From Nocardioides caldifontis (GTDB taxonomy: Bacteria; Actinomycetota; Actinomycetes; Propionibacteriales; Nocardioidaceae), in NCBI RefSeq assembly GCF_008087345.1, contig NZ_VHIB01000001.1, forward strand, positions 682,001 through 746,000: 64,000 nt of DNA. Direction: 5' to 3'. The position numbers and the translations under genes were made by a program. Each line of letters starts with the position of its first letter. Within the stretch, counting starts at the first letter, position 1. Positions 25,241-63,776 of this stretch are shown one piece after another. Below the pieces are notes generated by a model. It did not search any database. It was given only the letters and a program-made list of their open reading frames with translations, and was not told the DNA's origin.

Positions 25241-25320
25241 GTGGCCTCCTTCGGGATCGATCTTGGCTGCTGCGTGCGGGAGCGCACCCGACTTTCGGGG
25301 ACCGATCGGATCAGCGGCTC

Positions 25321-26587
25321 CTATTGGCGTCTGTTGATCCTGCGGTTGCGGGTGATGCAGGCCTTGCCGTCGCTGGCGTACTCGGTGGTGTAGCGGGGGT
25401 CGTGGACCATCCGGTGGTGCCGTGGGCAGAGCATCGTGCCGTCTTCGACGGTGGTTCGGCCGCCGCGGGACCAGGGTTGCTTGTGGTGGGCGTGGCAGAA
25501 CGACGCAGTGCTTGTCGCGGGAGGCCATCGCGATGCGTTGGGGGTGGGTGTGCAGCCGGGTCCGGCGGCCCTGGTCGAGCACCACCGACCTGGAGTCGAG
25601 GACCTGGGGAATGATCCCGGCCCGGCACGCCAACCGGCGGGCTGCGCCCACGCTGATGGTGCCGCCGGTGGACAGGGTCGCGACTCCGAGGCCGCGTTCG
25701 AGGACGTGGAGGGGGATGGTGACCAGCACGGTGCACAGGCCGCCGGACTCGGGGAGCTTCCTGGTCGGGAACCGTTCGAGCAGCTCGCAGAGGGCATCGC
25801 CGCGGAGCTCGTCGAGCGGCCGCGCTTGGGGGAGACCCGTTTCGTCGTCGACCTCGCGGACGATCGGGTCGGGCCGCTTGAGTGACATCAGGGCGTCGAG
25901 GGTGACCTTGAGCATCGCCCCGTGCGCCGAGGGGATGGTGAACCGGCCGTGGGTGGAGCCGTGGCGGTCGTCGTACATCACCAGCACTGTCTTCGCCGCC
26001 GCCCGGGCTTCTTCGCGTTCGAGCTGCTGGGCCAGCGCGGCGTCGGCGCCGTCGGGGTCGATCACGTGGTGCAGGTGCCGGGCCAGCCGCTTGAGCGCCA
26101 CCGCGTCGAACTCCCCGGCCAGCCCGATCAGGTGGGCCTCGGCACGAGCCGGGTCGACCGCACCCACCTCAGCCGGCAGCCCGTCGACGGCCTCGATGAT
26201 CACCCGCGCCTGCGCCCCGTCGACCCGGCCGGCGATCGCTGCGGTGGCGGTGGCCTCGAACGACGGGAGCCGCTGAGCGGTCTTGACCAGCTTCCGCGCC
26301 TCCCCGCCCGGCACCCGGGTCGCCTGGGTCAACCACGCCGCGGTGCTGGTCGCGGCGGTCTCCTGCGCGACGTCGACGATCTCGGCGTGCGCGAGCAGGG
26401 CCAGCTTGAGCCCGTCCAGCCGGGCCTGCGCCGAGGCGATCTCGGTCAGCGCATCGGCGGTGTCGGTGGTGCCGAGCTCGAGGAGACCGATCCCGCCGGC
26501 CAGCGCGGTGTCGAGGACCTCGTGGATCCGGCCGGTGGCCCAGTGCACCCGGTTGGGGCGTTGGTGGACCGGCAGCTTGCTCTCCAT
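25321..26587 (-). pseudogene. DUF222/HNH endonuclease (13E12-like), frameshifted
   Basis: ATG 26587 begins a normal DUF222 domain (about 330 residues: alpha-helical, VPGGEARKLV, EVGAVDPARAEAHL). It ends with the usual HNH lead-in QRIAMASRDKHC. Near 25497-25503 the frame shifts, and the zinc finger continues in another frame as FCHAHHKQPW, MLCPRHHRMVH and a stop at 25321. About eight residues normally found between these parts, including the second GC motif cysteine, are missing, so this is a small deletion rather than a single-base slip. Such genes are common multi-copy elements in actinobacteria. It is probably inactive unless the assembly is wrong. Confidence 0.85.
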
Positions 26588-26694
26588 GGCTGCACGCTAC
26601 GGCCCGCCTCCGACAGTATTCGAACAGCATCGAACGGCTGTGGAGAAGACGGGAAGTGCGTCGGCAGGACCCGCCGGCCCGGGACCAGATCGCG

Positions 26695-57401: not shown

Positions 57402-57418
57402 TCAAGGTGGCTGCAAGG
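57402..57418 (+). promoter_or_regulatory. SARP-type direct repeat upstream of the DUF membrane gene
   Basis: TCAAGG (57402) and GCAAGG (57413) begin 11 bp apart in TCAAGGTGGCTGCAAGG. This is the spacing of SARP-binding direct repeats. A CCAGCGC precedes it at 57392. The site is 22 bp before ATG 57440. A nearly identical element lies upstream of the hemerythrin gene, on the other side of the SARP gene. Confidence 0.7.
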
Positions 57419-57439
57419 GGCCGGGTCGACGGTCTCCCC

Positions 57440-58144
57440 ATGACCCACGACACCTCTCCCCGTTCGGTCTCCCGGACCGTCTCTCGGACCTGGCGGCTCC
57501 TCCTCGTCGGCTCCGCCCTCACCGCCGTGGTGGGCGGCGGGATGCACCCCGACTCGGACGCCTCCGACCCGCTCCGCGAGCGGCTGGCCCAGATGACCGC
57601 CGACGACCAGTGGGTCCTCGGCCACGCGTTCATCGTCGTGAGCACGGCGCTGCTCGCACTCGGTCTGTGGACCGCCCGTCGGGACCTCCGCTGGTCGTCG
57701 TCGGTGCGCCGCGCGTTCGGCATCGCCGGGGTCGCGGTCGGGCTCTACGTGGTCGAGACGGTCGCCCACCTGGCGGCGGTCGTCGACTCCGACGCGCTCG
57801 CCGCGGGCGGGGCCGCGCCGGTGGCCTGGACGCACGTCGGGCTGAGCGCGGTCCTGTACCCGTTGAGCGGCTGGGCCGTCGCGATGCTGGCGCTCGCGAC
57901 GGCGCGCGGGGCGAGCCTGCCCCGGCGTGCGGTCGCCGGGCTCGGGCTGCTCGCCGGCGTCGTGCACGCGGCGTCGATCCCGCTGATGCTGCTCCTGCCC
58001 GACCTCGAGGCGAGCCGGCTCTTCCCGGTCGCGGCGATCGCGCTGGCCTCGTGGACGCTCGCGACCGGTGTCCTCGGCGCGCCCGGGTCCTCGGGGGCGG
58101 CCTCGCCGGGGGTCCCGGAGCGGTCACCGCAGCCCGTGACCTGA
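57440..58144 (+). CDS. Multi-pass membrane protein of unknown function
   Basis: A 234-residue protein with five to six transmembrane helices (about residues 18-36, 62-80, 96-112, 132-152, 163-183 and 189-210). An acidic, hydrophilic loop follows the first helix and the C-terminus is short and disordered. It fits no function I can name; DUF998-like membrane proteins share the general layout. ATG 57440 lies directly after the SARP-type direct repeat. The SARP gene begins 40 bp after its stop. Confidence 0.75.
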   Translation: MTHDTSPRSVSRTVSRTWRLLLVGSALTAVVGGGMHPDSDASDPLRERLAQMTADDQWVLGHAFIVVSTALLALGLWTARRDLRWSSSVRRAFGIAGVAVGLYVVETVAHLAAVVDSDALAAGGAAPVAWTHVGLSAVLYPLSGWAVAMLALATARGASLPRRAVAGLGLLAGVVHAASIPLMLLLPDLEASRLFPVAAIALASWTLATGVLGAPGSSGAASPGVPERSPQPVT

Positions 58145-58184
58145 GCCCCGGGACGGGAGGGGGCGGGGCGGCTAGCCTCCCCCC

Positions 58185-61100
58185 ATGCTGGTCCGCGTGC
58201 TGGGCGACCTGGAGGTCGTGGTCGCCGGCCGGGTCGTGGACCTCGGCGGCCCCAAGCCGCGCACCCTCCTGGGCCAGCTGGTGGCCGCCGCCGGCCGGCC
58301 GGTCCCGGTGGAGCAGCTCATCGACCAGGTGTGGGGCGAGGAGCCGCCGGCGCGGGTGGAGGCGTCGCTCCAGTCGTACGTCGCCCGGCTCCGGCGGGCC
58401 CTCGAGCCCGACCGCGGCTCGGGGCGGCCGGGCGAGCTGCTCCGGACCCATGCGGGTGGCTACTCGCTCGACGTGCCGGCCGAGGCCGTCGACGCCCGCC
58501 GCTTCGCCGCGCTGGTCCGTGAGGCCCGCGACGCGGCGCCCGACGTGGCGGTGGGGCTGATCGAGGAGGCGCTGGACCTCTGGCGCGGTGAGCCGTACGC
58601 CGGGCTGACCGGCCCCTCCCTCGAGGCCGAGGCGACCCGGCTCGTCGAGCTCAGGACCGCCGCAGTGACCCGACTCTGGGAGCTCCGGCTGGCCCGCGGG
58701 GAGCACGCCGAGGCCGTCGCCGAGCTCGAGCAGCTGACCCGGCTCCACCCGCTCCGCGAGCAGCTCTGGGCGCTGCTCGCGCTGGCGTTGTACCGGGACT
58801 CCCGGCAGGCCGACGCGCTGGCCGCCCTCCGCCGGGTCCGGTCGGCCCTGGCCGAGGAGCTCGGGGTGGACCCGGGGCCGGAGCTGCGGGCGCTGGAGGA
58901 GGCGGTGCTGCGCCAGGACCCCGCACTGGACCTGCCGGCGGCCGCGACTGTGTCGGCGCCAGCCTTGGTTCCGGCCGCCGAGCCCGTCGCGGCTGCGCCC
59001 GCCTCGGCGCCCTTGCTCCACGGGCGCCTCGAGTGGCTGGCCGAGGTCGAGCGGGTGCTCGACGAGGCGGCCGCCGGCCGTGGCCGCACCGTGGTGGTGA
59101 GCGGGGAGCCGGGCATCGGCAAGACCCGGTTCACCGAGGCGGTCGGCGAGCTGGCCACGGCGCGCGGCTTCCGCACCGGCCGCGGGACCTGGGAGCCGGA
59201 GGCCTGCCCTGCGCTGTGGGGATGGAGCCGGGCGCTCACCCAGGCGCTGGGCAGCCCGCACCTCCTCGCCGCGGCGTCCGAGGACGCCGGTGACGTCGCC
59301 TCGGCCGTGTTCCGCCAGGCCGACGCCGTCCTCGCCGGGCTCGCGGACGGGCGGCCCTCGCTCCTCGTCCTCGACGACGTGCACTGGGCCGACGCCGCCA
59401 GCCTGCGGCTGCTCCGGCGGCTCGCGGCCGAGCTGGCCGCGGTGCCGGTCGTCCTCGTCGTCGCCCTCCGCAACGCACCGGCCGAGATCGGCGGACCGGT
59501 GGCCGACGTGCTCGCCGCCCTCGCCCGGCTGGACCCGCTCCGCGTCGAGCTCGCCGGGCTCCCCGCCGACGCGGTGCAGCGGTGGGTGGCCGAGCACGCC
59601 GGGCTCACCGTCGGTCCCGAGGTCGCCGCGGAGCTGGTCGCCCGCACCGACGGCAACCCCTTCTACGTCACCGAGCTCGTCCGGCTGCTCGTCGCCGAGG
59701 GCGCCCTCGGCGACCTGCGCGCCCCGGCCTGGCGGGCGGTGCCGCGCGGCGTCCGCGACGTCGTCCGGCAGCGGCTCGCGTCCCTGCCCGCGTCGAGCGT
59801 CGAGGTGCTCACCACCGCCGCGGTCGCCGGCCGGTCGTTCGACCTCGCCGTCGTCGCGCGGGTGGTCGACGACGACGTGGCCGTCGAGGAGGCGGTCGAG
59901 AGCGCGCTGGTGCTCGACCTGGTTGGGGAGGAGGGGCCCGACCGCTACCGGTTCAGCCATGCGCTCGTCCGCGACGCCGTCCGGCCGCGCGCACGCGAAG
60001 GTCGCCGCGGCGCTCGAGGAGGTGCACGGAGGCCGGGTCCGCGAGCACGCCGCCGAGCTGGCCGAGCACTACCGGCTCGCGGGTCCGGCGTACGCCCGCA
60101 GTGCCTGGCACTTCGCGCTCCGTGCCGGGGAGGCCGCCGCGGCCGGGGCCGAGCACGACGAGGCGCTCCGGCTGCTCACCGAGGCGGCCGTGCTGCAGGG
60201 GGGCGACCCGACGGTCGAGCCGGCCGAGCGGGAGACCGTGCTCCGCGGCCGGGCCCGGGCCCTGACCCGCGTCGCCCGCCCCCTCGAGGCGTGGGAGCCC
60301 GCCGCCGAGGCGGCACGGTCGGCGCTCGCGCGCCGCGACGGGGCGGCGGCCGCCGAGGCGCTGCTGACCGTCACCGAACGGGTCGTCTGGGGGTGGCGCA
60401 CGCACCCGACCTGGGACGACGAGGCGATCGAGCTCTGGCAGACCGTGCTCGAGCAGCAGCCCCGCGAGGACGTGCTCACCCGGGCACGGATCAACGCGGC
60501 GATCGCGGTGGAGATGCTGTACCGCCCCGGCTCCGCCCACCGGGCGACGGTGCTGGCGGACCAGGCGGTCGCGATGGTGCGCTCGACGGGGCGGCGCGGC
60601 CACGCCGAGCTGCAGGTGCTGCGGCTGGCCCAGATGGCGCTGCTCAGGCCCGACCTGCTGCACCACCGCGCTGCGCTGCGCGACGAGATCGTCTCGCTGG
60701 CCCTCGAGGTCGGCGACCCGATCGACGTCGCCGCCGCGCTGACCGCCCGCGCGCAGGACCTCGGGGAGCTCGGCCGGCTGCAGGAGATGCAGTCCGACGT
60801 GGTGCGCGCCCACGAGCTCGCCGTACGCCACCACCTGCCGCAGAACATCGTCGTCTCCGGCTGGTGCCTGTCCCTGCGCAAGCAGGTCGACGGCGACCTC
60901 GCGGGCGCCGAGCAGGACATCGCCGAGATCGAACGGTTCCAGGCGACGCTCGCGATGTCCGGTGTGGGGATCGAGGTCAGCCAGCGGGCCAACCTCCGGG
61001 ACGTCGAGGGACGGCTGGGGGAGATGGAGCCCCACCTGCGCCGGGCCGCGCCGTACCACCCGGCCTTCCGCGAGCTGCACGCCCTCTCGCTGCTCCGCGC

Positions 61101-61476
61101 CGGTCGCGTCGACGAGCTGCGGCTGCTGCTGGGGTCGTACGACGAGCAGCCGGCGTTCTCGTTCGACTACATGTGGCTGCCGTACATGGCGGTCCGCGCC
61201 GAGGTCTGGTCCGGGCTCGGGGACGCGGCCGCCGCGGCGCGGATGTACGACGAGCTGCTGCCGTACGGGGACCGGCTGGCGTACTCCGTCCCCGTCGCCT
61301 TCCGCGGCAGCATGCACCTCGCCCTCGGCGAGCTCGCCCGGGTCGCCGGGGACCCGACCGCCGCGGCCCGGCACCTCGAGATGGCCCTGCAGGTGCACCG
61401 GGAGCTCGGGCTGGCCCACTGGGTCGGGCGGACCGAGGAGGCGTTGACCCGACTGGCCGGCACCGTCGTCGGCTGA
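58185..61476 (+). pseudogene. AfsR/SARP-family regulator with AAA ATPase, frameshifted
   Basis: The first ~599 residues contain an OmpR-like DNA-binding domain (residues 1-95, VLGDLEVVVAGRVVDLGGPKPRTLLGQLV), a bacterial transcriptional activator domain (to ~245) and an AAA ATPase (GEPGIGKTRFTEAV Walker A; LLVLDDVHWADAAS Walker B). Near 59980-59990 the frame shifts and the TPR-like C-terminal ~495 residues continue to the stop at 61476. About eight residues usually between RDAV and the RAHAKVA helix are missing. ATG 58185 is leaderless after TAGCCT (58173). The intact DNA-binding part could still act if truncated. Confidence 0.85.
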
Positions 61477-61494
61477 AGGTCTCCTCCTCGCGCG

Positions 61495-61523
61495 CTCAAC
61501 ACCATCCAGGCGTGCCACGAGGG
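61495..61523 (-). repeat. Degenerate copy of the GCCACGAAGGGCGGCTCAA-type repeat
   Basis: CTCAACACC and GCCACGAGGG start 19 bp apart here (61495 and 61514), the same spacing as between unit 4 and unit 5 of the array at 42261-42421. It lies between the SARP and hemerythrin stops. Confidence 0.6.
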
Positions 61524-61528
61524 CCAGG

Positions 61529-62212
61529 TCAGGGGGTCGGCGTCCCGTGGATCCGCTCGGCGTACTTCCGGAACGCCCGCCGCGCGAGCCTCGGTACCAG
61601 CACCCGGACCGGCAGGGGAGCCGGCGCCAGCATCTCGGCGATGACGGCGGGGTCGCCTTCGTACTGGTACATCCCGAACGTCAGCGCCAGCTCCTTGCGC
61701 GGCGTGCTCGCCCGTCCGGCATCGCCCATCGCGTCCCACTCCGCCTGCTTCATGGTGCGCGCGGCGATCGGCAGCAGCCGCTGCTCCTCGGCGTCGAGGT
61801 GCTCGATGAGGTGGACGTGGAGCTCGTCGAGGAGGTCGGCCACCTGGTCGCGGACCTCGGCCCCGGCGGACGAGCGGAACGTCGGCAGCAGCCCGCCGAT
61901 CCGCTGGATCAGCCCGTCGACCCGCTCGTGCTGGGACTCCATGAGGTGCACGATCGGCGCGAGCTCGTCGGGGACGCGCTCGAGCAGCTTCGGCCACATC
62001 AGCTCGTCCTCGATGGTGTGGTGGTGGTGCAGGTGCCGGGTCAGGAACTCCACGTGGTCGGCGACCACGGCGGCCCGCCGCAGGTCGCCGGCGGTGACAC
62101 CGCGGACCACCCCACCGGCGAGGCGGAACTCGCGGCGGTGGAAGGTGTGCAGGGTCGGCATGACGCTGGTGTCGACGAGGGCGCCGGTCTGGCCGTGGCT
62201 GGTGGTGGACAT
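61529..62212 (-). CDS. Hemerythrin-like HHE-domain protein
   Basis: A 227-residue protein. A HHE cation-binding domain (about residues 15-145) has His and Glu pairs in LHTFHRREFRL, TRHLHHHHTIEDELMWP, MESQHERVD and HLIEHLDAEEQRLLP, typical diiron-binding hemerythrin ligands. The C-terminal 60 residues are basic. It may bind O2 or NO or sense redox state. ATG 62212 follows GGAGAGAG. It is the likely second target of the SARP regulator, whose boxes lie 50-77 bp upstream. Confidence 0.86.
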   Translation of the reverse strand: MSTTSHGQTGALVDTSVMPTLHTFHRREFRLAGGVVRGVTAGDLRRAAVVADHVEFLTRHLHHHHTIEDELMWPKLLERVPDELAPIVHLMESQHERVDGLIQRIGGLLPTFRSSAGAEVRDQVADLLDELHVHLIEHLDAEEQRLLPIAARTMKQAEWDAMGDAGRASTPRKELALTFGMYQYEGDPAVIAEMLAPAPLPVRVLVPRLARRAFRKYAERIHGTPTP

Positions 62213-62261
62213 CGTTTCTCTCTCCTGGTGGTCGGTGGACGTGACCACCGTGGGACCGGGC

Positions 62262-62289
62262 TCTTGCAACCACCTTGAGCGCTGGTTGC
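62262..62289 (-). promoter_or_regulatory. SARP-type direct repeats upstream of the hemerythrin gene
   Basis: Read on the minus strand, GCAACC, TCAAGG and GCAAGA start 11 bp apart (62289, 62278 and 62267 going downstream). The central TCAAGGTGGTTGCAAG differs from the box at 57402 by one base. A CCAGCGC precedes it in both. The element is ~50 bp before ATG 62212. Confidence 0.7.
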
Positions 62290-62326
62290 ACCCGTCACAG
62301 TGGGCCGGAGGTCCCGCGCGGCCTGG

Positions 62327-62332
62327 TAGGCT
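62327..62332 (+). promoter_or_regulatory. Extended -10 promoter of the DEAD-box helicase
   Basis: TGGTAGGCT has a TG-extended -10 (TAGGCT, 62327-62332). Transcription would begin near 62340, giving a ~100-nt leader before GTG 62439. No convincing -35 is seen. Confidence 0.55.
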
Positions 62333-62341
62333 GGCCCCAGA

Positions 62342-62369
62342 GGCCGCAGCGTTTCGCGCGGCCTTCTTT
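62342..62369 (+). terminator. Intrinsic terminator/attenuator in the helicase leader
   Basis: GGCCGC, A, GCG, TTT, CGC, GCGGCC form a nine-pair stem with one bulged A and a three-base loop (62342-62363), directly followed by TTCTTT (62364-62369). It looks like an intrinsic terminator placed at the very start of the helicase transcript, suggesting attenuation, or possibly a terminator for readthrough from the left. Confidence 0.65.
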
Positions 62370-62438
62370 CATGTCGCCCGGTGTGGGGCGCCCTCTGCGG
62401 CGCGGACCAGTGATCGGGCTCGACCCGAGAAGAGCTCC

Positions 62439-63776
62439 GTGTCCGTCGTACCGCTGCCTGTCCCTGCCGTCCCCACCTTCGAGTCCTTCGGGCTGCCCCG
62501 CAAGGTGCTCGCCGCCCTCGTGCTCGAGGACATCGAGACCCCCACCCCCGTCCAGTCCGCCGTCATCCCCGACGCGCTCGCCGGCCACGACGTGCTCGGC
62601 CGCGCGCAGACCGGCTCCGGGAAGACCCTCGCCTTCGGCATCCCGGTCGTCGCCCGGCTCGCGGGGGAGAAGAGCCGGATCAACCGTCCGCGGGCGATCA
62701 TCATCGTCCCGACCCGCGAGCTCGCCGGCCAGGTCGAGCGGTCGATGGAGCTGGTGGCGCGGGCGGTGAAGCTGAAGCTCGCGACGGTGTACGGCGGCAC
62801 GCGGTACGACCGCCAGGTGCAGCAGCTCCGCCAGGGCACCGACATCGTCGTGGCCACGCCGGGCCGGCTCCGCGACCTGATCGACAAGGGGATCCTGCAG
62901 ACCGACGACGTGCAGGTGACCGTGCTCGACGAGGCCGACCACCTCTGCGACCTCGGGTTCTTCCCGGAGGTCGACGAGCTGCTGTCGCTGACCCCCGAGG
63001 GCGCGCAGCGGCTGCTGCTCAGCGCGACCCTCGACGGCGACGTCGACGTGCTCGTGAAGAAGCACCTGCGCGACCCGCGGCTCCACGAGCTCGACAGCTC
63101 CTCGGCGAGCGTCACGACGATGGACCACCACGTCCTGACCGTCGGCGGGTTCCGCGACAAGGTGGCCGCGGCCGTCGCGCTCGTCGAGGCGAACCCGCGC
63201 TCGATCGTCTTCACCCGCACCCGCGAGGGCGCCACCGAGCTCCGCGACGCCCTCGCCGAGCAGGGCGTCAACGCCGTCGACCTGCACGGCAACCTGTCGC
63301 AGCGGGTCCGGGAGCGGAACCTCGAACGGTTCTCCACCGGCCGCGCCCAGGCCGTGGTCGCCACCGACGTCGCCGCCCGCGGCATCCACGTCGACGGTGT
63401 CGGGCTGGTCGTCCACTTCGACCCGCCGACCGATCCGAAGGCGTACCTCCACCGCTCCGGGCGCACCGCCCGCGCCGGCGAGTCCGGTGCGGTGGTCACG
63501 ATCGCCACCCTGCGCCAGCTCACGAGCGTCGCGCAGCTGCAGCGGACGGCCGGCGTCGAGGCGCGCCACCACGACGTGCGTACGGCGCCCTCGCCCATGA
63601 CCGCGGAGGCGCTCGCCTCCTCCGGCACCCTCAAGGCCCCGGCCCGCAAGAAGGCCGGCGGTCCCCAGGGCCCGCGGGGCGGGTACGCCGGGAAGGGGCG
63701 CCGTCGCGACGAGCGCCCCGGCCGTCGTGGCGGCCGCCCGGCGCGCCCCTCGACGGCCCGCGCCCGCCGCGGCTGA
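62439..63776 (+). CDS. DEAD-box ATP-dependent RNA helicase
   Basis: A 445-residue helicase. Motifs in order are the Q-motif (FESFGLPRKVLAALVLEDIETPTPVQ), AQTGSGKT, PTRELA, TPGR, DEADH, SAT, FTRTREGA, ATDVAARGIHVDG and HRSGRTARAG. The C-terminal 60 residues are basic and Gly/Arg-rich, suited to binding RNA. It probably unwinds structured RNA in ribosome assembly or cold adaptation. GTG 62439 follows AGAAGAG. Its leader contains the terminator-like hairpin described separately. Confidence 0.94.
   Translation: MSVVPLPVPAVPTFESFGLPRKVLAALVLEDIETPTPVQSAVIPDALAGHDVLGRAQTGSGKTLAFGIPVVARLAGEKSRINRPRAIIIVPTRELAGQVERSMELVARAVKLKLATVYGGTRYDRQVQQLRQGTDIVVATPGRLRDLIDKGILQTDDVQVTVLDEADHLCDLGFFPEVDELLSLTPEGAQRLLLSATLDGDVDVLVKKHLRDPRLHELDSSSASVTTMDHHVLTVGGFRDKVAAAVALVEANPRSIVFTRTREGATELRDALAEQGVNAVDLHGNLSQRVRERNLERFSTGRAQAVVATDVAARGIHVDGVGLVVHFDPPTDPKAYLHRSGRTARAGESGAVVTIATLRQLTSVAQLQRTAGVEARHHDVRTAPSPMTAEALASSGTLKAPARKKAGGPQGPRGGYAGKGRRRDERPGRRGGRPARPSTARARRG

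Follow-up and report, generated by a model that had tools for sequence, protein, structure and literature searches.

A probable recent loss-of-function deletion at the NOD/arm boundary of a large SARP gene of Nocardioides caldifontis

Introduction

The regulator AfsR of Streptomyces coelicolor (PDB 8k60, 8jke and 8hvr) consists of a DNA-binding domain, a BTAD, a NOD (AAA) and a C-terminal arm/sensor, in this order, with the NOD assigned to residues 271-618 and the arm to residues 619-777 (PMC10936776). In transcription assays in vitro the SARP domain was inhibited by both the NOD and the TPR, and AfsR lacking the TPR did not reach the activity of the SARP domain on its own; in vivo the NOD proved indispensable (PMC10936776). 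In EmbR of Mycobacterium tuberculosis (PDB 2fez and 2ff4) the DNA-binding domain and the BTAD are present and the NOD/sensor half is absent. A gene with the AfsR order of parts, spread over two reading frames, was found in a 64,000-nucleotide stretch of Nocardioides caldifontis (NCBI RefSeq assembly GCF_008087345.1, contig NZ_VHIB01000001.1, positions 682,001 to 746,000 of the forward strand), referred to below as the window; positions are those of the window. The break is described here and its probable consequence, a recent loss of function, is weighed against the alternatives.

Results and discussion

Identity of the gene

The N-terminal part of the product carries an OmpR-type winged-helix DNA-binding domain (PF00486, residues 23-93, 5e-10), followed by a BTAD (PF03704, residues 102-242, 9.9e-37), the order that defines the SARP family. 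After the BTAD comes a NOD/AAA (STAND) ATPase domain, as in the large, AfsR-like SARPs; its Pfam match is to AAA_16/NOD (PF13191, residues 280-425), the NOD region extends from residue 280 to just short of the NOD/arm boundary, and both Walker motifs (GEPGIGKTR and LLVLDDVHWAD) are present. Residues 5-596 were aligned to residues 29-607 of AfsR (PDB 8k60), and residues 5-264 are shared with EmbR. Over about 600 residues the N-terminal part is 52-66% identical to eight orthologues (L058 and L060-L066, from the same family as the source organism), and the alignment is free of internal gaps except for a linker insert of 3 residues. The original prediction, made from the letters and their open reading frames, had taken the DNA-binding and ATPase parts to be intact; the Pfam matches and this nearly gap-free alignment agree, and the same holds for the BTAD.

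The C-terminal part, encoded in a different frame, matches the C-terminal part of intact large SARPs from the family along its entire length, with 49-59% identity (48-59% once the further relatives described below are counted). Searches of this part against Pfam and NCBIfam gave no match above cut-off, and Pfam detected no TPR either here or in the C-terminal part of one intact orthologue. The gene is a large SARP of the AfsR kind, with an OmpR-type DNA-binding domain, a BTAD, a STAND-type NOD and an arm/TPR-like sensor. It differs from AfsR in that the C-terminal part gives no Pfam TPR match, in that the N-terminal part reaches 186 bits against a cut-off of 1,430 for the NCBIfam AfsR equivalog (NF053617), and in that it is broken at about AfsR residue 612.

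The frame break and its size

A six-frame coding hidden Markov model (HMM), trained on the window and without prior knowledge of the break, called a frame switch at 59980. Among the 30 same-strand frame switches of the window, 28 are accounted for by an upstream-frame stop codon no more than 130 nt away; the remaining two are the SARP join and a join in a DUF222-HNH gene at 25501.

The size of the break was obtained by comparison with relatives. The conserved flanks ...FSHALVRDAV and RxHAxVAxAxE... are exactly 30 nt apart in all eight syntenic orthologues and 4 nt apart in the window; 26 nt are therefore missing and the frame is shifted. The 10-residue hinge between the flanks is kept in all 14 further relatives (partly from the same genomes as the eight), which belong to Nocardioides, Knoellia, Paractinoplanes, Spirilliplanes, Blastococcus, a Nanopelagicales metagenome-assembled genome and Ralstonia. 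These were found by an alignment-based contig search, a single C-terminal-part protein used as query having returned none. The frame-disrupting deletion of 26 nt occurs in none of the orthologues examined, as expected of a recent pseudogene. In the orthologues (L058, L060-L066 and L194-L205) the 30-nt hinge is intact and an uninterrupted frame of roughly 1,100 codons (926 in L202) runs through the position of the join, so that the C-terminal arm/TPR sensor follows in the same frame; the window gene has neither the intact hinge nor the single frame.

The deletion takes most of the conserved hinge at the NOD end and adjoins the NOD/arm boundary at AfsR residues 618/619, so that all parts behind the ATPase switch are uncoupled. 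The comparison with relatives bears out the original prediction of a single regulator in two consecutive frames (58185-59981, 599 codons, and 59986-61476), broken by a short deletion and frameshift with loss of residues; the frames meet at 59981/59986, within the proposed interval of ~59980-59990. The coordinates are collected in Table 1.

Table 1. Features of the interrupted SARP locus in the window.
Feature	Position	Strand	Length	Basis
N-terminal part of large SARP, intact	58185..59981	+	599 codons	Pfam, orthologue identity, AfsR match
Join, 4 nt in place of the 30 nt of orthologues	59982..59985	+		Orthologue comparison, HMM switch at 59980
C-terminal arm/sensor part, different frame	59986..61476	+	496 residues + stop	Orthologue identity, G+C content at third codon positions
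Stop-free upstream frame	58185..63776	+	1,863 codons	
Hemerythrin HHE-domain protein, convergent neighbour, unbroken	61529..62269	-		Pfam PF01814, synteny
Small membrane-type protein directly upstream, unbroken	57407..58144	+		Synteny; no Pfam family

No convincing flanking short direct repeats were found within 200 nt of the join. The folding of the strand around the join does not surpass that of shuffled sequence, either in the window or in three orthologues; a strong hairpin as the cause of the break was rejected on this ground.

Age of the break

The C-terminal part contains no further stop or frameshift over its 496 codons, has normal codon periodicity, and has a G+C content at third codon positions of 0.972, compared with 0.967 in the N-terminal part. 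On a fixed tree the terminal branch of the window gene measured 0.377 for the C-terminal and 0.292 for the N-terminal part, a ratio of 1.29, and the intact relatives range from 0.52 to 1.69. An old break followed by relaxed selection on the C-terminal part was rejected, since pairwise ratios of non-synonymous to synonymous change (dN/dS) and branch lengths both lie inside the range of the intact relatives. With no further break, normal periodicity and no clearly faster evolution, the break is either recent or an assembly error.

A recent loss-of-function deletion at the NOD/arm boundary was judged the best explanation, with a probability of about 0.6. Two points weigh against it. The C-terminal part shows, in pairwise comparison, an excess of about 18% in amino-acid change, which is mild, lies inside the range of the relatives and proves nothing. 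The deletion is, moreover, seen in a draft assembly of 33 contigs, so that an error of assembly has to be allowed for. Congeners are at best about 68% identical in DNA.

Real deletion or assembly artefact

Under this second explanation the 26 nt would have been lost from very GC-rich sequence through a mistake in assembly or consensus calling, and the gene of the strain would be intact and work as an ordinary large SARP. The fully maintained appearance of both gene halves fits such an error. So does the DUF222-HNH gene in the same 64 kb, which is also short by exactly 26 nt and for which a single technical cause would be natural; the two breaks of the window that lack an upstream-frame stop also exceed the average of the genome, about five in 1.2 Mb. 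This average comes from a scan for such breaks in another 1.2 Mb of this contig, accompanied by 0.4 Mb of a congener, and comprises about five real-looking frame breaks, for example in a GMC oxidoreductase gene and a lipA-like gene.

The same scan yielded evidence against the artefact. Breaks elsewhere in the contig differ from 26 nt (the net change is about -100 nt for the GMC oxidoreductase gene, and a LuxR/AAA-type regulator gene shows about +41 nt), and breaks without an upstream-frame stop were flagged at 3 per 400 kb here and at 2 per 400 kb in the congener G003, which is assembled as a single contig. Other genes of the genome are thus broken in a similar way and at an ordinary frequency, which supports a real deletion. 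The SARP gene is also single-copy in the genome, where its next best DNA match is 66% identical, and the absence of unusual folding around the join likewise argues against an error. A general artefact of 26 nt was not supported, the two other breaks that were sized being of different length, although one confined to the two sites of the window may have occurred. A real deletion is favoured roughly two to one, and the assembly error is regarded as a serious but less likely alternative.

The DUF222-HNH (13E12-type) gene lies at 25295-26588 on the minus strand and is frameshifted near 25501, with the HNH part cut. Comparison with its two paralogues L119 and L120 in this genome (C1:419105 and C3:592007) gave a deletion of exactly 26 nt. 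As the gene is multi-copy, misassembly is conceivable there.

Product expected after the join

The upstream frame continues past the join for 3,796 nt without a stop and ends at 63776. Along the SARP gene it is out of frame for 1.5 kb; it then crosses the hemerythrin gene in antisense and finally enters a DEAD-box helicase gene, whose frame it shares by chance. The foreign tail would come to nearly 1,260 residues. Base composition is enough to account for this openness. In the shifted frame the wobble base, which is G or C in 97% of cases, stands first in each codon and stops are rare; the equivalent shifted frame is free of stops over the whole C-terminal part in three of the eight intact orthologues. 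A crude scan of 58000-62500, not adapted to the promoters of this phylum, found no terminator for a read-through transcript, and no Rfam family was detected within the window. Read mechanically, 58185-63776 appears as an open reading frame for a 1,863-residue SARP-helicase "fusion", an annotation trap that arises from GC-rich wobble bases.

The description of the gene as truncated does not fit the open upstream frame. With no stop codon behind the join, translation has no natural end at this point, and a short active protein would have to come from proteolysis or from transcripts that end prematurely.

If the deletion is recent and real, the following course would be expected. A loss of 26 bp placed precisely at the NOD/arm boundary would separate the entire sensor half from the N-terminal part, and ribosomes starting at 58185 would make 599-601 native residues followed by the long foreign tail, or would run off where the transcript ends earlier. 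The product would probably be non-functional (misfolded or degraded), which would leave a young pseudogene whose regulatory output is lost.

The suggestion that the N-terminal product is a SARP freed from its sensor, with its targets permanently on, was compared with what is known of AfsR. In favour of such a protein, the DNA-binding and ATPase parts are complete and the sensor half is cut off. Translation, on the other hand, yields no short product, so that the foreign tail would have to be removed by proteolysis and ATP-driven release would be needed in addition. The inhibitory NOD is retained while arm and sensor are lost, and free or constitutive activity is accordingly not expected: in AfsR, removal of the TPR leaves a protein weaker than the SARP domain alone, and function in vivo depends on the NOD (PMC10936776). 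A constitutively active protein, as originally proposed, is therefore doubtful, and the freed SARP was considered very unlikely. That a real and fixed deletion left an N-terminal half which, with its foreign tail or as a processed fragment, regulates its targets independently of the sensor appears remoter still. Judged from AfsR, loss of function is a simpler expectation than permanent activation.

A split regulator was also considered, in which translation of the C-terminal half would begin internally, at the ATG at 59959 of the C-terminal frame, or depend on +1 frameshifting. In its favour, this ATG lies 27 nt ahead of the join and the C-terminal half is well preserved. No ribosome-binding-like sequence is properly spaced from it, however, a slip site is not recognisable by eye, and the conserved hinge would be missing all the same. 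The same CAT codon context occurs in the intact relative L065, so that ATG 59959 is not special. A split regulator is scarcely credible. Most likely, then, the gene is a young pseudogene of an ordinary kind, or else its break is a slip of the assembly; a permanently active short activator is not the likely outcome.

Locus conservation and annotation

The hemerythrin gene is linked convergently to the SARP gene in all eight orthologous loci and in 13 of the 14 loci of the further relatives, and the small upstream membrane-type gene is present in 6/8 and in 11 or 12 of 14, respectively. The orthologues thus have the same neighbours as the window gene, and this conserved neighbourhood identifies the compared genes as orthologues. 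The locus of membrane-type protein, large SARP and hemerythrin (57407-62269) is common to Nocardioides, Knoellia, Micromonosporaceae and Blastococcus; the Nanopelagicales copy of the SARP gene is also flanked by a hemerythrin gene. The linkage suggests that the SARP and the hemerythrin protein are functionally related. Should the deletion be real, the strain would be a natural knock-out of a SARP whose hemerythrin-linked locus spans several actinobacterial families.

Annotators should either label the gene as frameshifted or flag it for re-sequencing. It should be entered neither as two genes, nor as a truncated active SARP, nor as the 1,863-residue helicase fusion that an open reading frame caller may return in GC-rich DNA.

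Other broken genes in the contig

The GMC oxidoreductase gene (L148-L149; G000:C1:1031900-1033700, minus strand) has at least four frame switches and is clearly degraded. The lipoyl-synthase-like (lipA-like) gene (L082; G000:C1:311100-312400, minus strand) carries several frame breaks, and further copies of this family were found in the genome at C7:6743 and C1:545356. The LuxR/AAA-type regulator gene (L136; G000:C1:771200-772500, minus strand) has a frame break with about 41 nt more than its relatives L183 and L184. Just ahead of a metW-like frame, a metX-like gene has its end in two tandem copies (GYHETVRAFLDRAYDER occurs twice, in different frames) (L070; G000:C1:72493-72800, minus strand).
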